Origin: a virus
Length of the DNA: 45,491 nt
Direction: 5' to 3' (one strand)
IMG/VR virus record: IMGVR_UViG_3300024429_000004
Span: 1 to 45,491 of that record
Under the pieces are notes generated by a model. The model ran no database searches. It was not told the origin of the DNA and saw only the letters and a program-made list of their open reading frames with translations. A program made the translations under genes and the position numbers. Shown here piece by piece: positions 2,297 through 45,069 of the stretch (positions are counted from its first letter, which is position 1; every line of letters starts with the position of its first letter).

Positions 2297-2804
2297 CGGC
2301 GAGTTCATAGCGTCCATCAGCCCGGCAGAGCCGACGGGCACCGACTATGCAACATTCGATACGATTGAGGGCGGTTCGACTGTCCCAGAGCGTATTGGGG
2401 TCTATGACTTTTCCGGCTCGGACGAGGAGTTCATGGACTTCGCTTGTGTGCTGTTGCCTCAGTATGATGGCGGCGGCCTGACCCTGCGGATCATATGGAG
2501 TGCGTCAGTTGGATTTGCGAATCACACAGTGTGGCAAGCAGCAATTCGTCGGGTCGCCGATGATGCTGAAAATCTGAACACCAGCCACAATTATTCCTAT
2601 CAAATCGTAGAGGCGGCAGCACCTTCTGCCGTTGGCGAGGTGTCTTATGACGAGATTACCTTTACTGACGGCGAACAGATGGACGACCTGGAGGCGGGAG
2701 AGAAGTTCATCTTGCGGATCAAGCGTGATCCTGCACATCCTAACGACGATATGGCCGGCGATGCGGAACTACATGCCCAAGACCTGCTGATCAAGGAAAC
2801 CTGA
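2289..2804 (+). CDS. Putative virion beta-sandwich protein
   Basis: The product is 171 residues, starting at ATG 2289 inside the end of the previous gene. It is beta-rich: alternating hydrophobic strands such as LTLRIIWSAS and a C-terminal GEKFILRIKRDP are typical of jelly-roll or carbohydrate-binding phage head/tail decoration proteins. No catalytic motif is visible. Its stop overlaps the ATG of the LamG protein (TGATG), so the two are likely co-translated. A receptor-binding or decoration role is inferred from fold appearance and neighbours. Confidence 0.55.
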   Translation: MASGEFIASISPAEPTGTDYATFDTIEGGSTVPERIGVYDFSGSDEEFMDFACVLLPQYDGGGLTLRIIWSASVGFANHTVWQAAIRRVADDAENLNTSHNYSYQIVEAAAPSAVGEVSYDEITFTDGEQMDDLEAGEKFILRIKRDPAHPNDDMAGDAELHAQDLLIKET

Positions 2805-4696
2805 TGGCCCTCTATTTCGATCCCGGTGTGTCCGATCAGTACCTCGAGGCTGCATCCGTGCCAGTCAACGGACTGCCCCTGTCCTTCTCGTGTTGGGTGA
2901 ACATGCAAGGCGCAGCCGTGGGCTATAGGACACTCTTCGGCATCTTTAGTACCGTTGGTGGCAACGGCCTTTATTGCTTAAGGGCAAAAGAGGATCAAGG
3001 TTTCCCGACTAATCCACGATTCCAGGCCGAGTCCAATGACGGCACAAAGGGGGGGCGAATACTCGTTACGACGACTGCGGACTACGCGACCCATACGTGG
3101 CACCACATTGTTGGCGTCTTTTCGGATAGTACGCAGTGGATAATGATGGATGGGGACAATTACGATTCCGTAGGCGCGGCGAAGTCGTTTAGTAGCTCGG
3201 ACACGACAAGCATTGGGCACAAGATTGGAGCGGCTGGAGGAAGTAACGGAGTAGACGCTTACCTGGCTGAGCTTGCTATCTGGAATGTGGCGTTAGATGC
3301 ACCATATGAGGCGATTGCTCTTGCTCGTGGGAGAAAACCTAATCGGGTACGGCCGGGGAATCTCGTGTTCTATCGGCCCACGGTCCGGGACGAAGATATA
3401 GACATAGTGGGAAGAATGAGCATGATCCCCACGGGGCCGCCCACCGTCGCGCCTTCCCATCCTCCGATCATTGGAGACTATCGCGCCGGTCGGGGACTGT
3501 TTGTAGAGCCTGCGGTAGCCGAGGACCGCACTTTCCTGCCCGAACCAGCAGTGCTCACCCTTGCGCCCGTTGCCCCCGCGTTGTTGCCTGTCTTGCAGCT
3601 TGCCCCCGTAGCCACGGCCCTGGTCATGGGCGCGCCGGATGTAAGCATCGCCTTGGGGGCCTTGACCTTCGAGCCCGAACCGGTAGCTCTGACGTTAACC
3701 GCCCCGTCGATCACCCTAGACATAGAGATCACCGAACGGGTGTTCATGCCCACCCCGGTTGTGTTTCAAGTCCTTGCGCCGGATATCCTGTTGGGCCTTG
3801 GTGCGTTGGTTTTGCAACCGGCTGCCATCGCGATTGAGACTACTGCGCCAAGCATATCGATCACCCTCGGCGAATTGGTCTTACAGCCGACGACCACGCC
3901 ATTGACTCTGACCGCCCCGTCAATCGGCCTGGACGTCCAGCTGGTCCTACAGATCGGGCCGACGGCGCTGCAGCTCTCCGCCCCCGACGTAGCTCTGGGC
4001 TTGGGCGCGCTGACGCTACAGCCGGTAGCAACCGCCTTACAGATGACGGCACCAGATGTGTCGATCGTCTCGCTGCTCACTTTGCAGCCGACAGCCACGG
4101 TGCTCAACATCGTGGCGCCTGACATTGGGATTGAGCTTGGCGAGCTGTTGCTGCAACCATCGCCAACGGTGCTGCAACTCGGCGTACCAGCACCGACGAT
4201 AATCCTCGGCACCTTGACCCTTAACGCCGAACCGACGGCGCTCTTGCTGGGCGCGCCGGACGTGCTGCTGGGCTTGCAATTGACGCTCAACCCAAGCCCG
4301 ATCGTCTTGCAGGTGACTGCTCCGGACGTATCGGTGACCCGGGTTCTGACCCTGCACCCCGACGCGACGGTCCTGGCCATCGTGCCGAAAGACGTGGCGC
4401 TCGAGCTAGGGGCGTTGACTATCCAGCCCGTGCCGGTGGCCCTGACGTTGACCGCGCCGGACATTCGGATGTGGACCTACGGCCGCGAGATGGTACTCGC
4501 GACGTTGCAAATAACCAGACTTGTGGAGGCGACGTTAGCGATGGCTGAGGAAGTAGCTGTGACGTTGGACATCCGAAAAGAAGTGGCCATCGACCTAGCT
4601 GTGCGGCGAGAGGTTGATGTCACATTAGCCGTGGTCCAGGAGAAGGCTGAAACCCTGAGCATACGGACGGAAGTAGAAGCGGTCCTGGAGCGATAG
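2804..4696 (+). CDS. LamG-domain fibre protein with two classes of tandem repeats
   Basis: This 630-residue protein has three parts. Residues 1 to about 190 look like a LamG/concanavalin-like jelly roll (LPLSFSCWVNM near the start; ELAIWNVAL near its end), a glycan-binding fold common in phage adhesins. Residues about 243-557 are a tandem array of roughly 13-14 units of 21-23 residues, each close to LTLQPxPTxLxLTAPDVxLxLG. Residues about 566-630 switch to a 10-residue repeat (VxVTLxxRxE). The repeats probably form an extended beta fibre. With the flanking small beta proteins it is the best candidate for a head or tail fibre that contacts the host surface. It is unusual in lying before the large terminase gene. 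Confidence 0.75.
   Translation: MALYFDPGVSDQYLEAASVPVNGLPLSFSCWVNMQGAAVGYRTLFGIFSTVGGNGLYCLRAKEDQGFPTNPRFQAESNDGTKGGRILVTTTADYATHTWHHIVGVFSDSTQWIMMDGDNYDSVGAAKSFSSSDTTSIGHKIGAAGGSNGVDAYLAELAIWNVALDAPYEAIALARGRKPNRVRPGNLVFYRPTVRDEDIDIVGRMSMIPTGPPTVAPSHPPIIGDYRAGRGLFVEPAVAEDRTFLPEPAVLTLAPVAPALLPVLQLAPVATALVMGAPDVSIALGALTFEPEPVALTLTAPSITLDIEITERVFMPTPVVFQVLAPDILLGLGALVLQPAAIAIETTAPSISITLGELVLQPTTTPLTLTAPSIGLDVQLVLQIGPTALQLSAPDVALGLGALTLQPVATALQMTAPDVSIVSLLTLQPTATVLNIVAPDIGIELGELLLQPSPTVLQLGVPAPTIILGTLTLNAEPTALLLGAPDVLLGLQLTLNPSPIVLQVTAPDVSVTRVLTLHPDATVLAIVPKDVALELGALTIQPVPVALTLTAPDIRMWTYGREMVLATLQITRLVEATLAMAEEVAVTLDIRKEVAIDLAVRREVDVTLAVVQEKAETLSIRTEVEAVLER
3531..4475 (+). repeat. Array of ~22-residue coding repeats in the LamG fibre
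   Basis: Thirteen to fourteen units of about 63-69 bp encode the pattern L-L-x-P-x-x-T-x-L-x-L-x-A-P-D-V followed by a short hydrophobic G-ending strand. The units are diverged at DNA level but clear in protein, which suggests an old expansion under structural constraint. Confidence 0.85.
4500..4690 (+). repeat. Decapeptide coding repeats at the C-terminus of the LamG fibre
   Basis: About six consecutive 30-bp units encode VAVTLDIRKE-like decapeptides (VAIDLAVRRE, VDVTLAVVQE, KAETLSIRTE). The hydrophobic-TL-hydrophobic pattern and terminal Glu are kept in each unit. The period differs from the preceding 22-residue array, so a separate structural element is likely. Confidence 0.85.
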
Positions 4697-8012: not shown

Positions 8013-8889
8013 GGCTGATAGGCAACTTGTCCGTCGCATGGACGCCGATGTGTCGCGGGTGATTCGCAAGGGCCTTACCAGCGCGCGGCAGATCGGTGCA
8101 CGCGCCGAGCGCGCGGCCGTCAAGGCCTATCGCCAGGGGTTGGATTACGGGGCGGCGGTGACGACCGAAATGGAGGCCCTGACCGAACTGCTGGCCGATG
8201 CCATGCTCCTCGCCCGGTTGATGGGCATGAAGCGCGCTATCGCCAGTCGGCCAGTTGATATGCGGCGCAGTCCCTATACCACGATGCTGCGAAACCTGGC
8301 GTTTCTCTGGGGCGCTGATCAGTTGGCTTTGCGCCATGCCCAGGAATTCAGCATCGCCGAGGCCGAGCTTACGGTGGCCCAGACCGGCCAGCTCTTGCGC
8401 CGTCGTCTGGACCAAGCGGCTACGGTTGTCACCATGCAGGGCCTGCACGTCCGAGAAGGGACCAAACTCTTTCACCAGGTGTTTCGTGCCTCTGGTCTGG
8501 TACCCCGGAATTCTTTCACGGCGCAGAATCTCCTGCGGACACAGGCCCAGATGAGCTACGCGACCGGACGCTACGCCGCCGATCAGGACCCGGCGGTACA
8601 GAAACGACTGTGGGGCTACACCTACGCCACGGCAGGCGACGAGGCGGTGAGGCTCAATCATGCGGCATTGGATGGTATGACCTTACCGAAAGACGATTCC
8701 CGCTGGGAGACGATGTGGCCGCCTAACGGTTGGTCATGCCGTTGTCAGGCCATCCCGGTGTTTGATGAACGGCCGGTGACCAAACCCGATGCGACGGTAA
8801 CCATCGGCGGGGCGGAGGTTGTGCCCGGCCCGGACAAGGGCTGGGCATTCCATCCGGGTAGGAACGGCAGGACGGGATTAGCAGCGTAG
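8002..8889 (+). CDS. Minor head protein (Mu gpF / SPP1 gp7-like)
   Basis: The product is 295 residues from ATG 8002. The N-terminal two thirds are long charged helices. The C-terminal domain carries the signature of the Mu F-like head morphogenesis family: AGDEAVRLNHAALDG, then PPNGWSCRCQAIPV near residues 230-255. These proteins bind the portal and are packaged in the procapsid. Its place directly after the portal gene is standard. Confidence 0.88.
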   Translation: MATEADRQLVRRMDADVSRVIRKGLTSARQIGARAERAAVKAYRQGLDYGAAVTTEMEALTELLADAMLLARLMGMKRAIASRPVDMRRSPYTTMLRNLAFLWGADQLALRHAQEFSIAEAELTVAQTGQLLRRRLDQAATVVTMQGLHVREGTKLFHQVFRASGLVPRNSFTAQNLLRTQAQMSYATGRYAADQDPAVQKRLWGYTYATAGDEAVRLNHAALDGMTLPKDDSRWETMWPPNGWSCRCQAIPVFDERPVTKPDATVTIGGAEVVPGPDKGWAFHPGRNGRTGLAA

Positions 8890-8900
8890 GAGCGCATGAT

Positions 8901-10181
8901 ATGCCATACACAGCAGAACACGCTTGCCGGGTAAACGACCCGGGGAAGTACAAGAGCTTCCGGCGACAGACGGGCAAGGGCGACCAGCCGGATATGATCT
9001 TCGGTATCCGCGCCGACGGCAAATCCGAAGTCCAGTCCTTTCGGTTCCCCGTAGACCGCTTCACGGAAGCCGCAGCTAGGGCATTCTGCCGGGAGCACAA
9101 GGGGCGATTCGAGAAGTCGGTCAAACCGCAGGCCGCGCGACTGGTCCTCAAAACAGAACCGCCGGTCTGTATTTCGGCCGAGATCGCGGGCGATGCGGGT
9201 CCCTATCGTCGATTTCGTAAGCACCTGATCAGTATTGGCAAGTACGTCAAAGAAGATCAGGGCTTAGAGTTCACGGTCACCGATGCCGTCATGCGGCATT
9301 GGGTCGAAGCGTTCGATGCGATGACTGCCAATGGTGTGACCATCCCTATGCCGGACGCACACGAAACGGCTGGGCAGGCGGCACACAATATGGGATATGT
9401 CGAAAGTTTGTTTATCGATGGGGATAAGCTGATTGCCAATGTCAAGCTGATTGGGCGGGATGCTCTTGATGCTGCTGCTCGTAACGACGTGTCGATCAGT
9501 GTCCCTCTTGACTTTGTAGATGGAAAAGGTGTGCGGTATGGGCAGGCTATTGAACACGTGGCTTTCACGCCAGAGCCGCTGATTCCAGGCCTCGATCCGT
9601 TCATACCGTTAGCCGCTAGTCGATGGCGTGTGGAGAATGCGACAATGAATTGGGAAACACTCGAAAACGCTCTCGGCGTAGAGGGCTTGAATGATGACAC
9701 GGCCAATGACCTGATTACCAAAGCGTTTCAGGCGCAGAACAAGGACACGGCTACGCTTCAGGCGTCCCTCAATGCCAATGAGGCCAAGCTGAAGAGTACG
9801 GAGACGACACTCGCCGAAGTCCAGGCCAAGGTCCAGGCCGAGCCTGAAAAGTTGGGACCCGTAACTCTAGACATGGCGCGCAAGACGCAGGCCACGCAAC
9901 TGGACATGTTGGTCCAGGCGAGCAAGATCACGCCAGCCGTGCGCGATGGTCTGCACGCGCTATTCATCGGCGACAACGGCGACCGCATCCAGGCATCGGC
10001 CGCCAATGGCACGCATCGACTCTTCGATGACGTGATCAGTTTGTTCGAGAAGAATGACCCGGTGGCGCTCGGCGAAAAGACCGGCCCGCAGACGTACATG
10101 AAGCTGAGTCGCGAAGAGGCGTCTGCGGATTCGCTGCTCAACCGGGCCAAGGCCCGGTCTACGGCTGCGGTTGCGGGCTGA
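8901..10181 (+). CDS. Prohead protease / scaffold (Mu gpI-like)
   Basis: The 426-residue protein has three parts. Residues 1-70 form a small N-terminal domain ending AFCREHKGRFE. About 85-220 resemble the Mu I-type prohead protease (HETAGQAAHNMGYVESLFIDGDKL, then NDVSISVPLDF). A C-terminal region contains a long coiled coil (LQASLNANEAKLKSTETTLAEVQ, about 270-310), as in scaffolding cores. It probably guides shell assembly and then cleaves itself and other head proteins. The N-terminal domain is an addition relative to the simplest protease-scaffold fusions. Confidence 0.8.
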   Translation: MPYTAEHACRVNDPGKYKSFRRQTGKGDQPDMIFGIRADGKSEVQSFRFPVDRFTEAAARAFCREHKGRFEKSVKPQAARLVLKTEPPVCISAEIAGDAGPYRRFRKHLISIGKYVKEDQGLEFTVTDAVMRHWVEAFDAMTANGVTIPMPDAHETAGQAAHNMGYVESLFIDGDKLIANVKLIGRDALDAAARNDVSISVPLDFVDGKGVRYGQAIEHVAFTPEPLIPGLDPFIPLAASRWRVENATMNWETLENALGVEGLNDDTANDLITKAFQAQNKDTATLQASLNANEAKLKSTETTLAEVQAKVQAEPEKLGPVTLDMARKTQATQLDMLVQASKITPAVRDGLHALFIGDNGDRIQASAANGTHRLFDDVISLFEKNDPVALGEKTGPQTYMKLSREEASADSLLNRAKARSTAAVAG

Positions 10182-10212
10182 TCGCCAATTGTTGTAAGGA
10201 CAAGAACACAGA

Positions 10213-10237
10213 GTTGGCGGCACAACAGGGAGTATAA
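10213..10237 (+). promoter_or_regulatory. Repeated hairpin plus Shine-Dalgarno leader, copy 1
   Basis: A 25-bp segment that recurs with one mismatch at 11283-11307. It contains a small hairpin (GTTG-gcggca-CAAC) directly followed by a GGAG ribosome site, 3 bases before the ATG region of the decoration gene. Only this gene and the major capsid gene have it, so it may set strong, matched translation of the two shell proteins. Confidence 0.7.
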
Positions 10238-10240
10238 AAC

Positions 10241-11269
10241 ATGGCTACGCTTACTGAAGCGACTAGGGTCGCCGATCTGGTAAAACATGAGCCGGATAAG
10301 TACGCCGGCCGGGACACCCCGTTTGTAGACCAGAGCCAGGCGCTCACCATCGGCGAGATCGTCCGCCGGGGGGCATCCGGTCGGGTGGTTGCCTATGCGG
10401 CGGCGGCGAACGAAAAACAGCAATGTCTGGTCACGGGCGCCGATGGCGGGACATTCATCATTACCGTGACTCTGGCTAGTGGCGCACGGGTAGCGACCGA
10501 TCCAATCGCGCACAACGCCAACGCTGCGGGTATTTTGACCGGGTTAGATACCGCCTTCACGGGCGGGGACGTGGAGATCAGCGCCGGTACCACGCCGGCG
10601 GATTTCACGGTCCACTGGATTGGCGAAGATTACGTGGGCCGGCTGCAACCGTTGCTGGAGCTGGACATTTCGGCCCTGACTACAGCAGAGGACGCGACTG
10701 TTCTGCGCACGCAGACCGGCGGCTGGGGCGGTGCGGCGGTTAATGAGGTGCACACCTGTACCCAGGATGAGCTAGGAACCGCTGGCACGTTCACGATCAC
10801 CGTCGATCACTGGGATGGTACACGGGTCACCACGGCTGATATTGCCTATAACGCTACGCTAGCCCAGACCCAGACAGCCTTGGACTTGCTAACCGGAACT
10901 ATACCGCAGATTACCATCGCGGGCGAGATCGATACGGATGCCGACTTGGTCTTCACCTACGATGGATCGATGTACCGAGGTCGCAATATCAAGACCTTGG
11001 TATCAATCGATGTGAGTTCTCTGACAACCACCACGACCTCTACCGCTGTAGAAACCACGAAGGGCGGTCCCGGCGGCGAAGAGGCGCCGCATGGCATCTG
11101 CCTGAAGGACGTGATCACGGCCGGCGGGGCATACACGACAAGAGGGCTGTTCCTAACCGGCGGTCCCGCAGTGGTGGATGTGGCCAAGCTGGACTTCGGA
11201 AGTGGCATTCGACTGGACATCATCGAGGGCCTGCGAAAGCTGGGCATCACGTGCAGGGACGAAGCCTAA
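10241..11269 (+). CDS. Head decoration protein with two inserted beta domains
   Basis: This 342-residue protein directly precedes the major capsid gene. Its ends (residues 1-50 and about 285-342, including TRGLFLTGGPAVVDVAKLDF) look like a lambda gpD-type decoration protein. Between them are two diverged copies of a beta-sandwich module at about 52-150 and 165-275. Each has the pattern GTF-x-ITV, then A-x-I-A-x-N-A, then a strand ending LDIS or IDVS. A related module occurs in the fibre at 21849-23147. The insertions would project from the capsid surface. Cementing function is inferred from position and the terminal parts. Confidence 0.7.
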   Translation: MATLTEATRVADLVKHEPDKYAGRDTPFVDQSQALTIGEIVRRGASGRVVAYAAAANEKQQCLVTGADGGTFIITVTLASGARVATDPIAHNANAAGILTGLDTAFTGGDVEISAGTTPADFTVHWIGEDYVGRLQPLLELDISALTTAEDATVLRTQTGGWGGAAVNEVHTCTQDELGTAGTFTITVDHWDGTRVTTADIAYNATLAQTQTALDLLTGTIPQITIAGEIDTDADLVFTYDGSMYRGRNIKTLVSIDVSSLTTTTTSTAVETTKGGPGGEEAPHGICLKDVITAGGAYTTRGLFLTGGPAVVDVAKLDFGSGIRLDIIEGLRKLGITCRDEA

Positions 11270-11282
11270 GAACTGACTGAAC

Positions 11283-11307
11283 GTTGGCGGCACAACAAGG
11301 AGTATAA
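11283..11307 (+). promoter_or_regulatory. Repeated hairpin plus Shine-Dalgarno leader, copy 2
   Basis: Second copy of the 25-bp element seen at 10213-10237, differing at one base (AAGGAG instead of AGGGAG). It ends 3 bases before the start codon of the major capsid protein and provides a perfect ribosome site. Confidence 0.7.
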
Positions 11308-11310
11308 CCT

Positions 11311-12321
11311 ATGTCGATTTTGGACGTTTTCAATACGGACATATTCAGCGCCGTGTCGCTTACCCAATCAATGAACGTGGAGCCGCCCAAACCGATGCGG
11401 ATTGGTCAGATGGGACTGTTTACCACCCGGCCGCTCACTACCCGAACGGCGGTCCTTGAACGTAAAGACAGGACTATTTCCATCCTCCCAACGGCCGAAT
11501 GGGGTTCGTCCGGTACGGTCGGTAAGACGGACAAGCGTGTGGCGCGCCCGTTTTCCATCCCCCACACGCCCCACGACGATGTGGTGTTGGCCAGCGAAAT
11601 CCAGGGCGTCCGCAAATTCGGGACGGAGGACCAACTGGAGACCATACAGGACACGGTGCTCGACAAGCTGGACCGCATGAAAGCGAAGCACGAAGTCACT
11701 CATGAGTACCGCCGGGCCGCGGCCTTGACGGGCTACGTCTATGACGCCGACGGGGCAACAAAACTCGTTGATCTGTGGACGGACTTTAATCTCACTCGCT
11801 CTTCGCAGGATTTCGTGTTCGGTACCAGTACGTCAAATATCCGGGGGTTCTGCCTAGCTATCAAGCGGGTAATCGAACGGGCGCTCGGCAATGGCGGGCT
11901 GATCGGTCATATTCACGGCCTGTGCTCGGAGACGTTTTTCAACGCCCTGATTGAGCACGCAACAGTCACTACCGCCTACGAGCGATACCAGGCGGGTGAG
12001 CAACTGCGAAACGACCCGCGCCCGATGTTCCCCTACGGCGGGATCCTGTGGGAGGAGTACAGTGGCTCGGTCGGCGATAGAGCGTTCGTCACCGCAGGCG
12101 ATGCCAATGTATTCCCCGTTGGTGTGCCTGAGCTATTCCTTGAAGCCTTTGCCCCGGCTGACAACATCGACGCGGCCAACAGCGTGGCCTTGCCCTACTA
12201 CGCGATGCAGGAAGTGATGAAGATGAAAAAGGGCATCGACCTGCACACGGAATCGAACGAGCTGCCTCTGTGCTCCGTGCCTGAAGTGTTGGTCAGAGCC
12301 CATTCGAGTACGTGGGCCTAA
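11311..12321 (+). CDS. Major capsid protein (phage E family, HK97 fold)
   Basis: The 336-residue product matches the lambda gpE-type major capsid family. It has the N-terminal IFSAVSLTQSMN segment, PHDDVVLASEIQGVRKFG in the E-loop/spine region, and GDANVFPVGVPELFLEAFAPADN near the C-terminus. It forms the shell hexamers and pentamers. Its gene has the second copy of the strong repeated leader and is followed by a GC-rich hairpin at 12333-12357. Confidence 0.93.
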   Translation: MSILDVFNTDIFSAVSLTQSMNVEPPKPMRIGQMGLFTTRPLTTRTAVLERKDRTISILPTAEWGSSGTVGKTDKRVARPFSIPHTPHDDVVLASEIQGVRKFGTEDQLETIQDTVLDKLDRMKAKHEVTHEYRRAAALTGYVYDADGATKLVDLWTDFNLTRSSQDFVFGTSTSNIRGFCLAIKRVIERALGNGGLIGHIHGLCSETFFNALIEHATVTTAYERYQAGEQLRNDPRPMFPYGGILWEEYSGSVGDRAFVTAGDANVFPVGVPELFLEAFAPADNIDAANSVALPYYAMQEVMKMKKGIDLHTESNELPLCSVPEVLVRAHSSTWA

Positions 12322-12332
12322 TGGGCTGATCG

Positions 12333-12357
12333 CCGGGCTTCGGTTGCGAATGCCCGG
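12333..12357 (+). other. GC-rich stem-loop after the capsid gene
   Basis: CCGGGC at 12333-12338 pairs with GCCCGG at 12352-12357, with an inner TTCG/CGAA extension. There is no U-tract, so it is more likely an mRNA stabiliser or partial attenuator separating high-level capsid expression from the genes behind it than a full terminator. Confidence 0.45.
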
Positions 12358-12393
12358 ATGGGAATTGTGGACCGGTAGCACAGGAGACAGCGA

Positions 12394-12741
12394 GTGGAAG
12401 GCGTTGACTTGACCTCATTGGGGACTGGTGGCGCAGTTGGGATCGCCTTAGTGATTATCTTTCTTCTCGTTAAGCATGTGGTTGCGCGCACTGGCAACGA
12501 TAGGGAAGCTAACCGCTGGAAAGATCTGTTCGCATTGGTGCGCCAGATTCATCACTGGGACCGTGATCTACATGACTGGCATTCCGCTACTGATGCCGAG
12601 GGGGTCAAGATATGGTATGTACGACGGTCGCTAGAAGAGGCGATCGTCAAGTTGGCCGAGAACATTGACAAGCAAACAGAAATTCTGCGGCAGATGCACA
12701 TGGAGTTCATAGCTCTGCAACGGGAAAAAACTAAGGAGTAA
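12394..12741 (+). CDS. Membrane-anchored coiled-coil protein
   Basis: The product is 115 residues, starting at GTG 12394 behind an AGGAG site. One transmembrane helix spans about residues 13-27 (GAVGIALVIIFLLVKHVVA). It is followed by a charged helical region and a C-terminal amphipathic helix (EEAIVKLAENIDKQTEILRQMHMEF). With the lipoprotein gene that follows three bases later, the pair resembles an inner-membrane plus outer-membrane partner set such as spanins, but its place between the capsid and connector genes is atypical for lysis. A superinfection-exclusion or entry role is the alternative. Confidence 0.5.
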   Translation: MEGVDLTSLGTGGAVGIALVIIFLLVKHVVARTGNDREANRWKDLFALVRQIHHWDRDLHDWHSATDAEGVKIWYVRRSLEEAIVKLAENIDKQTEILRQMHMEFIALQREKTKE

Positions 12742-12744
12742 ATC

Positions 12745-13035
12745 ATGGTATCGATGGTGTGGGAATGGTTGAAGTTGTGGTGGCTGCTGGGATTGCTGCT
12801 GCCGTTTCTGGGCGGCTGCGAATCGGCTGGGCCGCAGGACTTTGATGATGTAGTGCTAATTGTGGACAAGGTACGAGTAATTGCCCAAGAACAGGGAGTC
12901 AGTTGGGCTGTTACTGCCGATTTCACTGGCGATTTCTACGTCTACGAAACGTTCAAAATGGGCCTCGATTCTGGAATCAGGGTCCGGGCGCATTTTCAGG
13001 GTAACGCTCAGGGCGGTCATGCTGGTAGTCCCTAA
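12745..13035 (+). CDS. Small phage lipoprotein
   Basis: The 96-residue product has a signal peptide rich in Trp and Leu ending in the lipobox LGGC at about residues 22-25, followed by ESAG. The mature domain is about 72 residues, mixed alpha/beta (VVLIVDKVRVIAQEQG, then FYVYETFKMG), and is not proline-rich like Rz1. It therefore lacks the usual outer-spanin look. It follows the membrane coiled-coil gene by three bases and is probably co-expressed with it. Possible roles are an outer spanin or a surface lipoprotein altering superinfection; neither is proven. Confidence 0.6.
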   Translation: MVSMVWEWLKLWWLLGLLLPFLGGCESAGPQDFDDVVLIVDKVRVIAQEQGVSWAVTADFTGDFYVYETFKMGLDSGIRVRAHFQGNAQGGHAGSP

Positions 13036-13118
13036 CTTGTGTCGCTCGCCGTCGCTGCGGATGGTTGCCGCCAAATCCGTCTGCGGCGGTGTAGCGGCAT
13101 AACCGGAGGTGCAGTGCA

Positions 13119-13544
13119 ATGGCGTATGCGACGCGGGCCGACATAGAGAACATTTTCGGCAAGAGCAATGTCGAACAGTGGGCGGATTTGGACAATCTTA
13201 AGGTCCAGGTCGATATCACTGCTCGGATCACAACCGCGCTTGCCGATGCCGTGGAGTTCGTTGACGACACCCTGCGGGCCGGTCCATACGCCCTGCCGTT
13301 AACGGGCACACACGCGACGCTCAAGCGGCTGACGGCCATCCTGGCGGGTGTTCGGTTGTACGAAGCCCGTGGTGTGCAGGACATCAATGACGTAACCGGC
13401 CAGCCGATCCACAAGTACGTCTGGCACAAACAGGATGCGGACCGAACCTTGAAACGTATTCTCGCCGGTCAACTGCGCCTCGATGAACCCGATGAGGCAT
13501 CGATGGTACCGGCAGTAGTTACGGAGGATGACGATGACGATTGA
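13119..13544 (+). CDS. Head-tail connector (Mu gp36-like, DUF1320)
   Basis: The protein is 141 residues. The opening AYATRADIENIFG and the following helical bundle with ALADAVEFVDDTL and LKRLTAILAGVRLYEARG are characteristic of the Mu gp36/DUF1320 connector family, which joins portal to tail. It ends in a run of acidic residues encoded by GAGGATGACGATGAC; this sequence also supplies the ribosome site for the next gene. Confidence 0.82.
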   Translation: MAYATRADIENIFGKSNVEQWADLDNLKVQVDITARITTALADAVEFVDDTLRAGPYALPLTGTHATLKRLTAILAGVRLYEARGVQDINDVTGQPIHKYVWHKQDADRTLKRILAGQLRLDEPDEASMVPAVVTEDDDDD

Positions 13545-13926
13545 CTGGGGAGCTGTGCGGAACGGGGTGCTGATGTTGGCCGACTTATTACCGGAACAGC
13601 CCCGCAACCTTCTGTTGGAGTATGCTGGGACATTTGATAAACAGGAATACGAGGGTCGTGATCCGACTGCGGAATTGCTGGGAGTTCAGGCCGGTTTGGT
13701 TCATTGTCGGAATGCAGGTCATTCCGGTGTTGGTAATGCCTTTGCCTTGGTATCGACACTCGTGATTCGGGCATTGGCTACTAGGGTTGTCGTAGTTCCC
13801 GGAACTGCGCCCGCTTCCGCCGATGCGGCTTCAGCGGACACAGCAAAGGGCGCCCACGTAGAACCAGGACAATCCCAGTCCATTTTTCAACCCCCAGAGA
13901 GTGAGGTAGATACCAATGGCGTTTGA
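13534..13926 (+). CDS. Hypothetical connector-region protein
   Basis: The 130-residue protein starts at ATG 13534, correctly spaced from the GGAGG at 13523-13527; the earlier ATG 13528 is too close. The first 85 residues look globular and helical (VLMLADLLPEQPRNLLLEYAG). The last 45 are low-complexity, rich in Ala, Ser and Pro. No family is recognised. Lying between a connector and a small structural gene, it is probably a head completion or neck protein. Confidence 0.5.
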   Translation: MTIDWGAVRNGVLMLADLLPEQPRNLLLEYAGTFDKQEYEGRDPTAELLGVQAGLVHCRNAGHSGVGNAFALVSTLVIRALATRVVVVPGTAPASADAASADTAKGAHVEPGQSQSIFQPPESEVDTNGV

Positions 13927-14302
13927 CGCGAATTTAACGGTAGGTGTGGGTATTGCGGGGGTGGTCATAGGCAGGACCCTGACTTTCACCGGTACAGGTC
14001 ATAGCGGCTTCGACGAGACGATAGATGCCGACCAGACCGACGTGGAGGTTGAATGGGCCGTCGATGTATCGGCCTTGAAGCTGTTGGTGATGGTCGCCGA
14101 TCAGGATGTCACGATCGAGACTAATGACGGGGGTAGCCCTGTCGATACGATTGATCTGATCGCCAACGAGCCACACGTCTGGCACACCGACAGCCTGTAC
14201 ACCAAGAAGCTGACAACTGATGTCACGAGCGTGTTCATCACGACCGGTGCGGCAGCCACCCGCATCCAGTGCGAGGCCCTGACGGACGCGACGCCGGAAT
14301 AA
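13916..14302 (+). CDS. Small virion beta protein
   Basis: The 128-residue product is beta-rich and acidic, beginning MAFDANLTVGVGIAGVVIG and including LKLLVMVADQDVTIETND and SVFITTGAAATRIQ. Related small proteins sit between connector and tail-completion genes in several siphoviruses. Its start overlaps the previous gene's end by 11 bases. I infer a tail or neck structural component without assigning a named role. Confidence 0.5.
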   Translation: MAFDANLTVGVGIAGVVIGRTLTFTGTGHSGFDETIDADQTDVEVEWAVDVSALKLLVMVADQDVTIETNDGGSPVDTIDLIANEPHVWHTDSLYTKKLTTDVTSVFITTGAAATRIQCEALTDATPE

Positions 14303-14315
14303 GGAATACCAGCCG

Positions 14316-14882
14316 ATGTCTGTCAAAGTGAACTTAGCACCGCTGCGGCGCTTCCAGGATGACATCCGGCGCGGTCTGGCCGGCGGCTCCGGCCCGATCC
14401 GGGACGCCATACGGGTCTGGGCCGCCATGTACCGGGCTTTCGTCCAGGAGCGGTTCAAGCGGGCCAGCCGGGGCGGTGGCGAATGGACGGGCCTCAAGGA
14501 GGCGACGATCAAGGCCCGCCAGAGGAGAAACAAGGCCGGGCGCCGCCGGGGCGCACGGGCTGCTGGTGCATCACGGGCGGCCATCTTGTGGCAGACGGGT
14601 ACCCTTGTCGGTGCCCTCCAGCCGCGATTCGGCGGGGTAGTCGGCCAACTACAGGAAGACGTCCCTTTTGGCATTCGTGTGGGGTACGGCCGCGATGCGC
14701 ATCCCGGAACCGATGGGCGGGTGACCGTTCAAGACCTGGCGACATGGCACCAGACGGGTGCGGGCAACCTGCCGGCACGCCCGATCATCGTCGATCCCGA
14801 TCGGCGAACGGTGGACATGATGCGCCGAGAGATGGAGGACGCGATCCGGCGATCGCTGCGGGCCAATGGCATCCGAGACTGA
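14316..14882 (+). CDS. Virion morphogenesis protein (Mu gpG / HK97 gp10-like)
   Basis: This is a very basic, 188-residue protein. It follows the pattern of the phage virion morphogenesis family: an N-terminal helix, then FVQERFKRASRGGGEWTGLK, a basic RRR tract, the WQTGTLVGALQPRF segment near residue 100, and a terminal HQTGAGNLPARPI motif. These proteins complete the head-tail interface or help attach tails. Its stop overlaps the next gene by 17 bases. Confidence 0.78.
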   Translation: MSVKVNLAPLRRFQDDIRRGLAGGSGPIRDAIRVWAAMYRAFVQERFKRASRGGGEWTGLKEATIKARQRRNKAGRRRGARAAGASRAAILWQTGTLVGALQPRFGGVVGQLQEDVPFGIRVGYGRDAHPGTDGRVTVQDLATWHQTGAGNLPARPIIVDPDRRTVDMMRREMEDAIRRSLRANGIRD

Positions 14883-15378
14883 TCCGTTTACGCAGGTCTA
14901 TGACGCCCTGTATGAGCTTCCATGGAAGCGGGAGGCGCTGTGTCGGTTGGTCCGCGCTGGCAATCGTGTGTCGTACGCGGATGATGATCGCGATCCCGTT
15001 AAATCAACCGTGACAACCGCCGATTTGCCGGAGCTGCGGTTAGTCCCGTTGGGCGGTACGCCGCACCTGCAGCGCACCAGCAGCAGCAGTACGTGGCTCA
15101 TGCGCTTCCAGTGGATGCTGGCTACGGCCGACCAACGTGTGCATAAATACCTATTCCCCGTCGAATGGGAGCTGCTGCGGGCCATGGCCGACTGGGGGAC
15201 CTACCTTAAAGCGCTGACGTGGAAAACTGAGACGTTTGCTAGAGTGATGAAGCTCACTGATGCGCGGCTGGGAATGGTCGATCCCGAAGTGAGTCGCGGC
15301 ATCAAGGGTTGGATATCCGTCTGGGCATGTGAGGTGCTCATGCAGTTTAGTACCGTAAACCTCATAGCAGAGGAGTAA
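14866..15378 (+). CDS. Putative tail terminator / completion protein
   Basis: The 170-residue product has the size, position (between gpG-like protein and tail tube) and alternating helix/strand layout expected for a tail terminator. It contains LPELRLVPLGGTPHLQRTSSSS, then STWLMRFQWMLATADQR. It overlaps its upstream neighbour and ends four bases before the tail-tube start. Assignment rests mainly on gene order. Confidence 0.55.
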   Translation: MASETDPFTQVYDALYELPWKREALCRLVRAGNRVSYADDDRDPVKSTVTTADLPELRLVPLGGTPHLQRTSSSSTWLMRFQWMLATADQRVHKYLFPVEWELLRAMADWGTYLKALTWKTETFARVMKLTDARLGMVDPEVSRGIKGWISVWACEVLMQFSTVNLIAEE

Positions 15379-23781: not shown

Positions 23782-24492
23782 CTAACGGAGATCCCAGCCT
23801 TCACGGCTTGCACGCCCGGCAGGGCTTCTTGCCGTTGAACTCGGCGTCGATGCGGGTGACGTGCGAGGATGGCAATTGAAACAGTGGCTAAAACGTTGTG
23901 GTTTTCTCAAGGAATGTTGTGATTCATTCCTGGAGCATTCCGGCAGAACTTGAAACCATATCCCGTTGAGCTTGCCTTCGACAAAGTAGGGGAAAGGCTG
24001 GTCAAAAGAGAGTATGCCCGTGGGCGGAAGCGTTCCCCAGCTCCGCCAGAAGCCTACCCCAGCATTGGGAGTGGGTGTCTTCGCCAAAAATCTAAGCAAG
24101 TACACCTTCAGAGCACTCCCATCCACGGGCAGCTCTTGACTAGGCGATACTGTGCCGCGGTAGAACAATCGCCCGACCGCCCACCAGTCCTCGGCAGAGA
24201 CGCCACGCACCGGATAAAACTCTACATCCCGACTCTCCCAAGAAATGCCGATCATTTTCCACAATCCCTGGAACTCGAATCGCTCCGGGTCCCAAGCCAA
24301 AGAAATCTCAAACACATCGAATGACGCGGGCTCTTTCGCATGCGCCCAAAGCCGTAGCTCGAACACCTCGCCGACCCTTACCCACTCTGCCGGACCTATC
24401 CCCGCCCCCTGCCCTAGGCTCAGGTGTACGTCGATCAGTTGTGCCGGCGACAGAGAAGTCAACATCAACCAAATCCATAGACTTTTCATCAT
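23782..24492 (-). CDS. Secreted cohesin-like protein (possible lysogenic conversion gene)
   Basis: The 236-residue protein has an N-terminal signal peptide (SLWIWLMLTSLSPAQ). Residues about 18-160 have the cohesin / carbohydrate-binding-like pattern: FDVFEISLAWDPERFEFQGL, a middle strand region, and ALKVYLLRFLAKTP. A second phage protein at 41635-42264 has the same layout. It is transcribed leftward, against the late operon, in a two-gene unit with the 24492-24710 gene whose end it overlaps; this is the usual place for genes expressed from a prophage. The last 45 residues are low-complexity, and the DNA there also encodes a more protein-like tail in another frame, so the true C-terminus may be frameshifted. 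Confidence 0.6.
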   Translation of the reverse strand: MMKSLWIWLMLTSLSPAQLIDVHLSLGQGAGIGPAEWVRVGEVFELRLWAHAKEPASFDVFEISLAWDPERFEFQGLWKMIGISWESRDVEFYPVRGVSAEDWWAVGRLFYRGTVSPSQELPVDGSALKVYLLRFLAKTPTPNAGVGFWRSWGTLPPTGILSFDQPFPYFVEGKLNGIWFQVLPECSRNESQHSLRKPQRFSHCFNCHPRTSPASTPSSTARSPAGRASREGWDLR

Positions 24493-24710
24493 CAGGCAAA
24501 CCTCCTCTTGCTGATTACCTCTCTCTTGGCGAACAGCCCCAGCGAAATCTCCTCAGCCAGCCACCAGCCAGGATGCCCGGGCGCGGACAGCACGTCATGC
24601 TCCCGGAGCCAGGCGGCTACCCCCACGGAATCATAGGCGGTCCCGTTCTCGGCGGCCAGGCTCGCCGCCAGACGGTCGAGGTCGAGCTGGATCAGAAACG
24701 AGTCGGCCAT
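24492..24710 (-). CDS. Hypothetical protein of the leftward unit (72 aa)
   Basis: The 72-residue protein has an acidic N-terminal helix (LIQLDLDRLAASLAAENG), a middle VAAWLREHDVLSAPGHPGWWLAEE segment and a basic end. Its last base overlaps the start of the cohesin-like gene, so the two probably form one transcript. It starts near a divergent intergenic region with an inverted repeat (24734-24770). No family recognised; a small regulator or accessory protein of lysogeny is possible. Confidence 0.55.
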   Translation of the reverse strand: MADSFLIQLDLDRLAASLAAENGTAYDSVGVAAWLREHDVLSAPGHPGWWLAEEISLGLFAKREVISKRRFA

Positions 24711-24843: not shown

Positions 24844-25023
24844 ATGCCATCACCGGAACCATCGTTCAATCTGACTGTACAGGAAATCGAACTGATTACC
24901 CTGTATCGGCTTCTGGGGGCCGACGATCAGGCTTCTTTGGTCGCCGCCGTCGATCGGCTTCTACCTCCGCCTCAACGACTTCTCCGAAGTCCTTGTCCAC
25001 CGTCGAGCGAAGCCACGCCCTAA
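24844..25023 (+). CDS. Small helical protein, possible regulator (59 aa)
   Basis: ATG 24844 has a very good ribosome site (ggggggaggga). The 59-residue product has a clean helical N-terminal domain (LTVQEIELITLYRLLGADDQ, then VAAVDRLL) and a proline-rich end. Its last 128 bases overlap, on the opposite strand, the end of the leftward regulator gene at 24896-25246, so the two transcripts would be antisense to one another. Short regulators such as this are common at lysogeny switches, but the identity is unproven. Confidence 0.45.
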   Translation: MPSPEPSFNLTVQEIELITLYRLLGADDQASLVAAVDRLLPPPQRLLRSPCPPSSEATP

Positions 25024-25246
25024 TCTGTTTCGGCGTTTTGGGCTCCGTCTCAAATTGCTCAAGCTCATCAAGAGCAACCTGCCTGAATTGGGGATGCTGG
25101 AAAAGCCAGAGCATGCCCGCTAGCACCAAGCGACCGTTGTTAAGCCCAAGAACGGTGCTGGCCCCCTCGTAGGCCGACTTCAACGATGCTGTTGCCTGTA
25201 CGTTGATCTGCGGTTTGTTTTTCCGCTGGTTTTTTGTTGCTGCCAT
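24896..25246 (-). CDS. Ribbon-helix-helix-like regulator, leftward
   Basis: The 116-residue protein starts at ATG (25244-25246 on this strand) behind TAAGG; the longer open frame upstream covers the operator region and is not used. The N-terminus is basic (MAATKNQRKNKPQ), then INVQATASLKSAYEGASTVLGLNNGRLVLAGMLWLF fits a ribbon-helix-helix or Arc/MetJ-like DNA-binding fold. The middle is acidic and the C-terminal tail very basic. It is divergent from the gene at 25379, with CTAG-centred repeats between them, and is the best candidate for the phage repressor. Confidence 0.55.
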   Translation of the reverse strand: MAATKNQRKNKPQINVQATASLKSAYEGASTVLGLNNGRLVLAGMLWLFQHPQFRQVALDELEQFETEPKTPKQIRAWLRSTVDKDFGEVVEAEVEADRRRRPKKPDRRPPEADTG

Positions 25247-25282
25247 AACCTTAGCGTCTATCGAGACTTGCGACGAATCAAG

Positions 25283-25342
25283 TCTAGAAAAACGAAATCT
25301 TCTAGAAATCCTCTTGACACCAGACGAATGGTGTGTTAGGTT
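25283..25342 (+). promoter_or_regulatory. Switch promoter with repeated CTAG operator-like sites
   Basis: TCTAGAAA occurs at 25283-25290 and again at 25301-25308, 18 bp (about two helical turns) apart. A third imperfect CTAG site lies at 25345-25348. Between and beside them is a good rightward promoter: TTGACA (25314-25319), 17-bp spacer, TAGGTT (25337-25342). The block lies between two divergent regulator-like genes, as expected for a repressor-controlled early promoter. Confidence 0.65.
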
Positions 25343-25378
25343 TCCTAGAGAATCTAAGAGCATCGGAGAACCGAGCAC

Positions 25379-25597
25379 ATGAGTGATAAGATCACCCTTT
25401 TAGTAGATGAGGATCCGGTCAAACGCCTTGAAGCGATGGCCCCGACGTACCTGCAGGGCAAGAATTTCGCCTCGCGACGCTTTGAGTGGGCGGTTGAGCA
25501 ACTCGAGCGCCTCATGGGCAACGGCCCCCCTAACAACAACCCCGGCGCCAACGAGGACGCCGGCAAGGATACGGACAAACCCGCACGGGACGGGTGA
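25379..25597 (+). CDS. Small regulator-like protein, rightward (72 aa)
   Basis: The 72-residue protein starts at ATG 25379, 37 bases after the -10 element and behind a GGAG sequence. KITLLVDEDPVKRLEAMAPTYL, then SRRFEWAVEQLERLM gives a strand followed by two helices, compatible with a ribbon-helix-helix fold. The C-terminal 25 residues are Asn/Pro/Asp-rich and disordered. Divergent from the leftward regulator across shared operators, it may be the counter-repressor (Cro-like). Confidence 0.5.
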   Translation: MSDKITLLVDEDPVKRLEAMAPTYLQGKNFASRRFEWAVEQLERLMGNGPPNNNPGANEDAGKDTDKPARDG

Positions 25598-41634: not shown

Positions 41635-42264
41635 ATGGTCAAAAGACTAATCCTAGCGTGTGTGCTGTTGCTGGCAGTGACCCTGTCGGCCTCAGCCCAA
41701 CAGATGAGATTGACAATCGAGCGCAAGGCCGATGTGATCGTTGGCAGGGAAGCGTGCTTCCACCTTGTCGCCACCCCGGTGGGGGAGCCGGTGAAGGTCA
41801 CGGCCATCAAGGTGGTGGTGAATTTTGACCCGACGATCCTGAAGTTCTTAGCCGTCGAGCCGGCCGACATCGGATGGGGCATCACGGCCGTCGGCGCGGA
41901 CGGCACGAAGTCGCACGAGGACCTGGTCAAGGAGGGGGTATCCCTATTCATGGCCGTGCTGTTCGACCGGAGCAATCCCCATGCGAGCTTCACACCGGCG
42001 GAGGGCGGTAGCGTCCTGTTGACGTACCGATTTCGTGTACTCAGAGAAGCCAAGTATTCGGCAGTGCGGATCAGCCCGTCTTACGGCAAAGACACCGGTC
42101 ACTGGCGGACGATGGTCCAGTCCGTCATCCTTGTCGGCGACCGCAGCGAACCGATCGACGTGATGATCCCGTTGGACGCTCAGGCATTATGTGCGCGCCC
42201 GATGGATGGTCGGGTGACACCCAGGGACCTAATCAAGGCACGTCAGGCGGATGTGCCGTGGTGA
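41635..42264 (+). CDS. Secreted cohesin-like protein
   Basis: The 209-residue protein has a clear Sec signal peptide ending ASAQQ near residue 22. Residues about 23-185 show the cohesin / immunoglobulin-like pattern: VTAIKVVVNFDPTILKFLAV, then VSLFMAVLFDRS, then SVLLTYRFRVL, and a final strand region. It shares layout and key segments with the leftward protein at 23782-24492. Cohesins anchor enzymes to surface complexes, so this may alter the host cell surface or compete with host cohesin-dockerin pairs. Being in the lytic operon rather than a prophage moron makes it unusual. Confidence 0.72.
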   Translation: MVKRLILACVLLLAVTLSASAQQMRLTIERKADVIVGREACFHLVATPVGEPVKVTAIKVVVNFDPTILKFLAVEPADIGWGITAVGADGTKSHEDLVKEGVSLFMAVLFDRSNPHASFTPAEGGSVLLTYRFRVLREAKYSAVRISPSYGKDTGHWRTMVQSVILVGDRSEPIDVMIPLDAQALCARPMDGRVTPRDLIKARQADVPW

Positions 42265-42499: not shown

Positions 42500-42729
42500 T
42501 GATGATCTGCCTGCCGATCGCTGTCGCGCTCTGCCTGCTCTTGCTTGCTCTTGTACTACTCGGGTGGGATCGACCGGGCCTGCTCTTCTTGATCGCGTTG
42601 GCTAGCCTGGTGGGGGGACTAATTTATGGCCACTACTATCCGGCGTATTGGGTAGTGGCGGTCACTCTGTACTTTAGTGTCGCACTCGTGATGGGCGCGG
42701 CGGCGTTCTGGGCCAAGCTCAGTGATTAG
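42499..42729 (+). CDS. Small three-TM membrane protein (holin candidate)
   Basis: The 76-residue product has three hydrophobic segments: CLPIAVALCLLLLALVLLGW, then LLFLIALASLVGGLIYG, then VVAVTLYFSVALVMGAAAFW, with few charges, resembling a class I holin in topology. It is followed by a broken gene for another small membrane protein. Without an endolysin nearby the lysis role is only a suggestion; a membrane-remodelling moron is the alternative. Confidence 0.6.
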   Translation: MMICLPIAVALCLLLLALVLLGWDRPGLLFLIALASLVGGLIYGHYYPAYWVVAVTLYFSVALVMGAAAFWAKLSD

Positions 42730-43535: not shown

Positions 43536-43742
43536 ATGAATGAGAAGATATGCCGTGTCTGTCGGTGGTATGAACAGCTCAATCCTAACGACCCGAACCC
43601 TTTCGGTCTGTGTCATCGTTATCCGCCTTTTGTGTTTTTCGGTGATGACCCGGAGGACTACGTGGCGTGGCCTGAAGTAGAGCAGTCGGATTGGTGTGGC
43701 GAGTGGGCGAAGAGTGATGAAGAGAATACTGAGCTCGAATGA
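43536..43742 (+). CDS. Phage cysteine/aromatic small protein (68 aa)
   Basis: The 68-residue product has CRVCRWYEQLN, then LCHRYPPFVFF, then WPEVEQSDWCGEW. This four-cysteine pattern with the WP...DWCGEW ending is common in small phage proteins that probably bind zinc. The next gene starts inside its end (ATGA). Function unknown. Confidence 0.6.
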   Translation: MNEKICRVCRWYEQLNPNDPNPFGLCHRYPPFVFFGDDPEDYVAWPEVEQSDWCGEWAKSDEENTELE

Positions 43743-44038
43743 CCGACCTTCCCCACATGCTGACCGTCCGCCAGGTTGCGGAGACCCTGCACCGCCGACC
43801 ACAGTACGTCCGCGACCTGATCCAGGGCGGTCAGCTCCGGGCTACGCGCATTGGCCCCCGCGGCGAGTGGTTGGTGTTCGCGGATTCGGTGTGGGTCTTG
43901 CTCGGCGTTTCGATTCGGAAGCAACGGAAGCCGCAGTCTTACTATGATCGGCGGGCGGCACTTGCAAGGGCGAGACGAGGCTACGTGCCACGTGCCGAGC
44001 GCGAGCGTCACGCACTTGTGCGTAAATCTGGACGATAG
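43739..44038 (+). CDS. Excisionase-like HTH protein
   Basis: The 99-residue protein has a MerR/Xis-type winged HTH near the N-terminus: MLTVRQVAETLHRRPQYVRDLIQ, then GQLRATRIGPRGEWLV. A basic C-terminal tail follows. It is adjacent and convergent to the integrase gene, and its 3' part overlaps the integrase end on the opposite strand for 197 bp, so expression of one would produce antisense RNA to the other. This fits a recombination-directionality factor that controls excision. Confidence 0.7.
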   Translation: MTDLPHMLTVRQVAETLHRRPQYVRDLIQGGQLRATRIGPRGEWLVFADSVWVLLGVSIRKQRKPQSYYDRRAALARARRGYVPRAERERHALVRKSGR

Positions 44039-44909
44039 ACAGGTCACGATGTCCGAGCGCAGCGGCCACATCCGATATATCGCATCCCTGATCCAGCATC
44101 GTTTGAGCACGGGTATGCCGGAGCGAATAGATCGTTTGCAGACCGTGCCGTTGAAGGATCGACCGAAGCCCCGCTACGGTGTAGGGCTTGCCGAGTTGGC
44201 TGCGGAAAACGTATCCGGTCCGTGTAGGAACGGTTCGCAGAACGGCTATCGCGTCGGGTGACAGATACAACGTGCGTGCGGTACCTGTCCGTGCGGTCTT
44301 ATGCTTGCCAAGTACGCAAACGGCTCGCGGCAATTGTACGTCTTCCCATCGCAATCCAACGGCTTCACCAGGACGGGCGCCAGTTTCCAAGATGAAGCGT
44401 AGAACATTGCGGGCCCGTTCCGGCAGGCTGGCAAAGGTCGCCATCAATTCCGCCGGCCGGGCATCGCGTGGTCGAACGAGCGGTTTGGGAAGATTGGGCG
44501 CCTCCGGTAGTGTCGCCAAATAGTCGTTTTTGATGCACCACCGCAGAACGCGAGTGGCAAGCCGGACCTTGTGGCGGATGGTGCTGGCGGCTTGCTTTTG
44601 TCGCCTGAGGTGACGTGTGTATTTGGCCAGATGGTCCAACCCAAGGCGATCGAGTTCCGTGGTGCCAGCAAAGTCGTCCCAGGCATTCAGTATCCAAACC
44701 TCCCACTTACCGCCGTAGATGAGTTGCCAGGCGGCGATAGCCTCGGCGACGGTCTCAGGTCGGTCGGTGGGCGCCTCGTGGCCTACGATCTCGCCGAACC
44801 GGCGATATGCCTGGGCCATTTTGGTTCCGAGGTAGTATTTCCGGTTTCGATACCGGCAGAACCACGAATTCCGGGACTTGTCGTATCGTGGTTGCGATGT
44901 CCAGCCCAT
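43842..44909 (-). CDS. int: Tyrosine site-specific integrase
   Basis: The 355-residue recombinase has an arm-binding N-terminus, a SAM-like core-binding domain (about 55-140) and a catalytic domain with R179 (GARPGEAVG), a Lys at 202-204, R264 and H287 (YSLRHTR, LGHRDL), and the nucleophile Y296 (QIYAQV). The usual first His of the HxxR box is Tyr261. I take ATG at 44907-44909 as start, because TTG 44978 lies within the promoter (44949-44978). It reads away from attP, which is 94 bp upstream, and integrates at tRNA-Pro. Its last 59 residues are basic/disordered and antisense to the excisionase gene. Confidence 0.9.
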   Translation of the reverse strand: MGWTSQPRYDKSRNSWFCRYRNRKYYLGTKMAQAYRRFGEIVGHEAPTDRPETVAEAIAAWQLIYGGKWEVWILNAWDDFAGTTELDRLGLDHLAKYTRHLRRQKQAASTIRHKVRLATRVLRWCIKNDYLATLPEAPNLPKPLVRPRDARPAELMATFASLPERARNVLRFILETGARPGEAVGLRWEDVQLPRAVCVLGKHKTARTGTARTLYLSPDAIAVLRTVPTRTGYVFRSQLGKPYTVAGLRSILQRHGLQTIYSLRHTRAQTMLDQGCDISDVAAALGHRDLSIVQIYAQVRDARARHVARSLVSPLQVPPADHSKTAASVASESKRRARPTPNPRTPTTRRGGQCA

Positions 44910-44948
44910 AATCAAGCGTCCGAGTCGACGGCTAAGCGCCCGATGCTT

Positions 44949-44978
44949 AGTATACCATACGCCGGATGTCTGTTGCAA
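44949..44978 (-). promoter_or_regulatory. Integrase promoter
   Basis: On the minus strand, TTGCAA (44973-44978) and TATACT (44949-44954) are separated by 18 bases and sit 40-70 bases upstream of the integrase ATG. The TTGCAA overlaps one of the arm-type repeats of attP, so Int binding could repress its own promoter. Confidence 0.6.
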
Positions 44979-45002: not shown

Positions 45003-45049
45003 TCGGGGCGACTGGATTCGAACCAGCGACCTCTTGACCCCCAGTCAAG
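45003..45049 (-). other. 3' half of tRNA-Pro(GGG), attP core
   Basis: On the minus strand the sequence reads CTTGA, loop CTGGGGG, TCAAG (anticodon stem-loop with anticodon GGG), a short variable loop, GCTGG-TTCGAAT-CCAGT (T arm), and CGCCCCG plus A (3' acceptor strand). The 5' acceptor strand and D arm are absent. This is the segment that restores a host tRNA-Pro gene after integration. Confidence 0.85.
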
Positions 45050-45053
45050 CCCC

Positions 45054-45069
45054 CGTTTCACGTGAAACA
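45054..45069. promoter_or_regulatory. parS: parS-like palindrome (ParB-binding site)
   Basis: CGTTTCACGTGAAACA matches the chromosomal parS consensus TGTTTCACGTGAAACA at 15 of 16 positions and contains its full 14-bp palindrome. A 14-bp exact match is expected about once in several thousand such genomes by chance. No ParA or ParB gene is present in the window. It lies 4 bp from the tRNA-Pro core of attP. Confidence 0.7.

Follow-up and report, generated by a model that had tools for sequence, protein, structure and literature searches.

A putative exported cohesin-like protein encoded near the integrase of a most likely temperate phage

Do tailed phages export cohesin-like proteins, and can a pair of them be recognised in a single genome? 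The question is raised by IMG/VR record IMGVR_UViG_3300024429_000004, a complete circular phage of 45,364 bp whose 127-bp start is repeated at the end. The whole stretch of 45,491 nucleotides is referred to here as the window. The initial annotation had assigned signal-peptide proteins of the cohesin type to two places, 41635-42264 in a lytic operon and 23782-24492 in leftward orientation next to a lysogeny region, and had regarded them as a related pair undescribed for phages.

The window carries structural genes of a tailed phage (terminase, portal, Mu-F-like, protease-like, capsid E and tape measure) as well as those for SNF2 and UvrD-type helicases, a primase-like protein and a RuvC-like resolvase. 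A 630-aa protein encoded at 2804-4696 (+) has a lectin-like Laminin_G_3 domain within residues 1-166, and a BppU_N-like protein is encoded nearby; the former is a probable receptor-binding part.

Gene 41635-42264 and its surroundings

The open reading frame at 41635-42264 (+), hereafter the 41635 gene, encodes 209 aa laid out as a signal peptide, a cohesin-like domain and a short C-terminal tail. It is preceded by a strong Shine-Dalgarno sequence (acaaaggag), and phage-like codon use was observed in this frame only (+0.27 bits/codon), the other five frames being negative. The signal peptide, MVKRLILACVLLLAVTLSASA/QQ, spans about residues 1-21/22 and is of the textbook type. Signal-peptide calls were made with a simple hydropathy filter, not a dedicated predictor. 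When this filter was run on the window ORFs with a length of 110 aa or more, the 41635 protein was the sole clear match; one other match lies antisense to the terminase.

The gene is located outside the structural part of the genome, between the resolvase-like gene and the genes of an excisionase-like protein and an integrase. It stands at the right-hand end of a rightward gene run, where it is tightly packed with its neighbours and separated from them by small gaps. The run ends on the right with the gene of an HTH_17 excisionase-like protein at 43739-44038 (+), for which the PF12728 match is sub-threshold (E=5.6e-05, 23.8 bits vs a cut-off of 27). A tyrosine integrase of 378 aa is encoded at 43842-44978 (-) and scores above the cut-off for PF00589 (73-75 bits). 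Because of this integrase, the phage is most likely temperate. The integrase and the excisionase-like gene are about 1.5-1.6 kb away from the 41635 gene, and it is therefore this gene, not the one at 23782-24492, that adjoins the lysogeny cassette at 43.7-45.0 kb. Thus, the contrast initially drawn between a gene in the lytic operon and a gene by the lysogeny region turned out to be reversed.

Upstream of the integrase, the minus strand of positions 45008-45055 resembles a tRNA 3' half that has the anticodon GGG (TTGACTGGGGGTCAAGAGGTCGCTGGTTCGAATCCAGTCGCCCCGA). Judging by this resemblance, the stretch is likely the attP, with a tRNA-Pro gene as the site of integration. Additionally, it could point to the identity of the host.

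In the region beside the integrase/excisionase cassette, phages often carry lysogenic-conversion genes. Like the exported envelope genes of this kind ('morons'), the 41635 gene appears to be a small exported accessory gene next to such a cassette; the phage is most likely temperate, and the gene adjoins the integrase. Our preferred reading, to which we give an even chance, is that the 41635 product is an exported binding protein with a cohesin-like sandwich that acts at the surface, encoded by an accessory and possibly lysogenic-conversion gene of a temperate phage. The co-orientation of the gene with the replication genes counts against this reading.

The same neighbourhood would also suit a passenger gene, acquired from a host rich in cohesin/dockerin surface proteins and playing no role in the phage, since the vicinity of an integrase is where host genes get picked up. 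Consistent with such an origin, neither a cohesin match nor a relative of the 41635 protein was found in the terminase-related phages (44-58% identity); most of these are fragments, so this absence is a weak argument. We nevertheless consider a passenger unlikely, as the gene is intact, uses phage-typical codons, has a strong ribosome-binding site and is tightly packed among other genes. In general, searches of viral contigs, genomes, phages and plasmids yielded no relatives of the 41635 protein, and conservation therefore gives no argument for function. Helicase and capsid scans of viral contigs, and a DUF5131 scan of genome contigs, gave no usable result.

Two genes downstream, at 42500-42729 (+), lies an ORF for a small protein with about three membrane helices predicted from hydropathy. 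Its start codon is uncertain, its Pfam search returned no match, and it is holin-like by size only. A possible holin at this distance would agree with a role of the 41635 protein, exported late, in lysis or release. We find such a role very unlikely, given that no endolysin was recognised near the 41635 gene in this phage and that the gene has the resolvase-like gene on one side and the lysogeny cassette on the other, away from the structural part.

Cohesin likeness of the 41635 protein

The cohesin-like domain covers approximately residues 24-180 and has the core motif IKVVVNFDPTILKF. When the protein was compared with 24,736 Pfam families, Cohesin (PF00963) was the sole match (12.6 bits, E=0.16) and covered 95 residues. 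In the reverse search of PF00963 against the whole genome, the 41635 protein was again the only match (E=0.003). The scores of 12.6-12.9 bits fail the Pfam cohesin cut-off of 24.1.

Comparison with known cohesins points in the same direction. The protein shares the strand motif of the CipA cohesins of Clostridium thermocellum (PF00963), and its pairwise scores with three of them beat 99.6-100% of shuffles. The CipA cohesins differ from it in being modules of a bacterial scaffoldin with known dockerin partners, whereas the 41635 protein is a stand-alone domain that stays under the cut-off. A cohesin profile built without the 41635 protein ranked it first among 76 window frames; in a second profile test it came first once more, and no shuffle reached as high a score.

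The single-sequence AlphaFold model of the protein is beta-rich and poor (pLDDT 39). Among 350,542 PDB chains searched with Foldseek, the top two matches to this model were the Clostridium cohesin modules 2jh2 and 2vo8, with a probability of 0.97-1.00, an E-value of about 0.011 and a TM-score of 0.31-0.48; no chain matched at E<=0.001. Because the model is poor, this fold match is only a hint. Further down the list, below the cohesins, were enzymes bearing CBM3 as well as immunoglobulin-like proteins.

Taken together, the Pfam, fold, shuffle and profile results make it probable that the 41635 protein has a cohesin-like fold, that is, a beta-sandwich. The part of the initial annotation that concerned this gene was thus largely borne out: the gene is real and its signal peptide is clear, and the likeness to cohesins is weak but consistent, remaining under the threshold.

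The protein might also be an exported beta-sandwich of another family, Ig-like or carbohydrate-binding, that has in common with cohesins only the strand motif hydrophobic-x-hydrophobic-x-aromatic-D-P-x-x-L-x-F. The sub-threshold Pfam score fits this possibility, as do the CBM3 and immunoglobulin-like entries in the Foldseek list and the hhalign match, which is limited to about 20-23 residues around the motif. A shared motif accounts poorly, however, for a Pfam match of 95 residues, for two cohesin modules as the best fold matches and for CipA scores in excess of nearly all shuffles, and we regard membership in another family as rather unlikely.

The C-terminal tail includes MDGRVTPRDLIKARQ (42202-42246, +), which resembles half of a dockerin calcium loop with the first acidic positions missing. 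Searched with dockerin PF00404, the tail gave no match even at E=10, and it contains one incomplete loop only. The other occurrence of the half-loop, at 14316-14882, falls within a protein that by eye resembles head/tail morphogenesis proteins; this second motif is probably due to chance, and the half-loop was rejected as a sign of a virion dockerin. In the genes of the phage as a whole, a search for PF00404, the dockerin check proposed along with the initial annotation, recognised none.

The leftward gene and the question of a pair

At 23782-24492 (-), the second ORF encodes 236 aa with a putative signal peptide. It is preceded by a strong Shine-Dalgarno sequence (gaggagg) and overlaps the end of the preceding gene, an ORF of 72 aa at 24492-24710 (-) that lies directly upstream in the same leftward operon. 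Codon use is coding-like over residues 1-180 and not over the last 57 (23782-23952). Since the codon signal stops near residue 180, the gene may have a worn end or a frameshift there. The signal peptide, MMKSLWIWLMLTSLSPA/Q, is plausible, weaker than that of the 41635 protein and under the threshold of the hydropathy filter; on this basis, the product may be secreted.

A second gene for a presumed exported protein therefore exists on the minus strand as annotated, but its assignment to the cohesins found no support in Pfam, shuffles or profile. Comparison with the 24,736 Pfam families gave no match, comparison with the CipA cohesins gave no score excess over shuffles, and the score against the cohesin profile was reached by 13/100 and 75/1000 shuffles. 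With a model of pLDDT 40, the fold search for the 23782-24492 protein is meaningless. No close relatives of this protein were found in viral contigs or phages.

Direct comparison of the two proteins by BLASTP gave a co-linear alignment with E=0.06 and 24% identity, and the pairwise score was reached by 3% of shuffles. The strand motif recurs as FEISLAWDPERFEF at about the same position in the 23782-24492 protein. The relatedness of the two appears marginal: the position of the motif keeps the idea alive without establishing a related pair of cohesin-type proteins. We take the leftward gene to encode a separate small and possibly exported protein, with an unproven relation to cohesins.

Further upstream, a leftward ORF at 24896-25378 (-) has a start that is ribbon-helix-helix-like by eye; this is not an integrase region. 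It is divergent from an ORF at 25379-25597 (+), and both resemble, again by eye, small ribbon-helix-helix regulators. Together they are possibly the control switch of the leftward operon. Among the leftward genes at 23.8-25.4 kb, no lysogeny function was recognised.

Secreted cohesins of other phages and the possible role of the 41635 protein

Cohesins of other phages came to light when 2.9 million viral contigs were scanned for a motif. The stricter first scan returned chance frames, and a relaxed scan led to the cohesins of large phages. These are proteins of about 640 aa with a signal peptide, a cohesin domain at Pfam level, a weak dockerin and a type IX secretion tail, encoded on the uncultivated large-phage contigs L106, L110, L111, L112 and L113 (38-174 kb). 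The 79- and 174-kb contigs have a strong terminase match and thus belong to true large phages. In the 174-kb contig, the neighbouring genes encode SSB, UvsX, DnaB, ribonucleotide reductase and an endolysin, and a portal is present in a related contig. The proteins of the five contigs are similar to the 41635 protein in that a signal peptide is joined to a cohesin or, in the case of the latter, probably cohesin-like domain in a phage genome. They differ in their multi-domain build, in which an extra beta domain, the weak dockerin and the secretion tail accompany the cohesin, and in the size of the contigs.

The large phages are relatives of Flavobacterium phage vB_FspM_immuto (NC_055915), whose gp15 (YP_010114427.1) is already annotated as a 'cohesin domain-containing protein' and scores 36.7 bits in Pfam, over the cut-off. 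At 11598-13422 of NC_055915.1, two adjacent genes, gp14 and the downstream gp15, take the place of the one long gene seen in the contigs, the cohesin and the secretion tail being in gp15. Like the 41635 protein with its probable cohesin-like domain, gp15 is a cohesin-type phage protein bound for export and encoded outside the structural genes. It differs in its Pfam score above the cut-off, its type IX secretion tail and its origin from a 160-kb phage of Bacteroidota, and the only resemblance found between the two is the cohesin-like core motif.

The suggestion that such proteins are undescribed for phages is therefore contradicted by gp15 and by its homologues in contigs of large tailed phages. 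Since genuine secreted phage cohesins are already in databases, the 41635 gene is an unusual, not an unprecedented, phage accessory gene. In the titles and abstracts of the open-access literature, we found no papers on the role of phage cohesins; as far as these show, the proteins are known at the database level and their function is unstudied. If export and cohesin identity both hold for the 41635 protein, secreted cohesin-type domains would be present in two or more unrelated phage groups.

The other phages also bear on a role in lysis, and in opposite directions: in L112, an endolysin gene follows the secreted cohesin gene at a distance of about 5 kb, whereas in immuto the cohesin gene comes after ribonucleotide reductase and nuclease genes.

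Returning to the exported binding protein that we prefer, the signal peptide suggests that the 41635 product would leave the cytoplasm via the Sec pathway and would then fold as a single cohesin-like beta-sandwich. Outside the cytoplasm, the domain would most likely bind a partner in the host envelope or the extracellular space. Such binding could give infected cells or lysogens a different surface, for instance one with a masked receptor or a held host surface protein, and the phage or the lysogen may benefit. The recurrence of exported cohesins in unrelated phages makes this idea biologically plausible. Receptor masking, capture of host surface proteins and passenger status are not distinguishable with the present data. 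A much broader proposal, which we consider decidedly improbable, is that temperate phages of unrelated groups have independently come to direct stand-alone exported cohesins at the dockerin-bearing surface proteome of their hosts, thereby altering the surface or the enzyme display of the lysogen.

Because the immuto phages were isolated on cultured Flavobacterium, the role of a phage cohesin is directly testable in them. Their uncultivated relatives hold a further feature of interest. In L112 (IMGVR_UViG_3300028025_000091, 173,789 bp), positions 8735-15063 encode a run of signal-peptide-like proteins that is conserved in L110, L106 and L113. The run starts with the secreted dockerin/cohesin protein with its type IX tail and, in L112, is placed after ribonucleotide reductase and before the endolysin. 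An exported gene cluster of such size in a large phage merits a study of its own.
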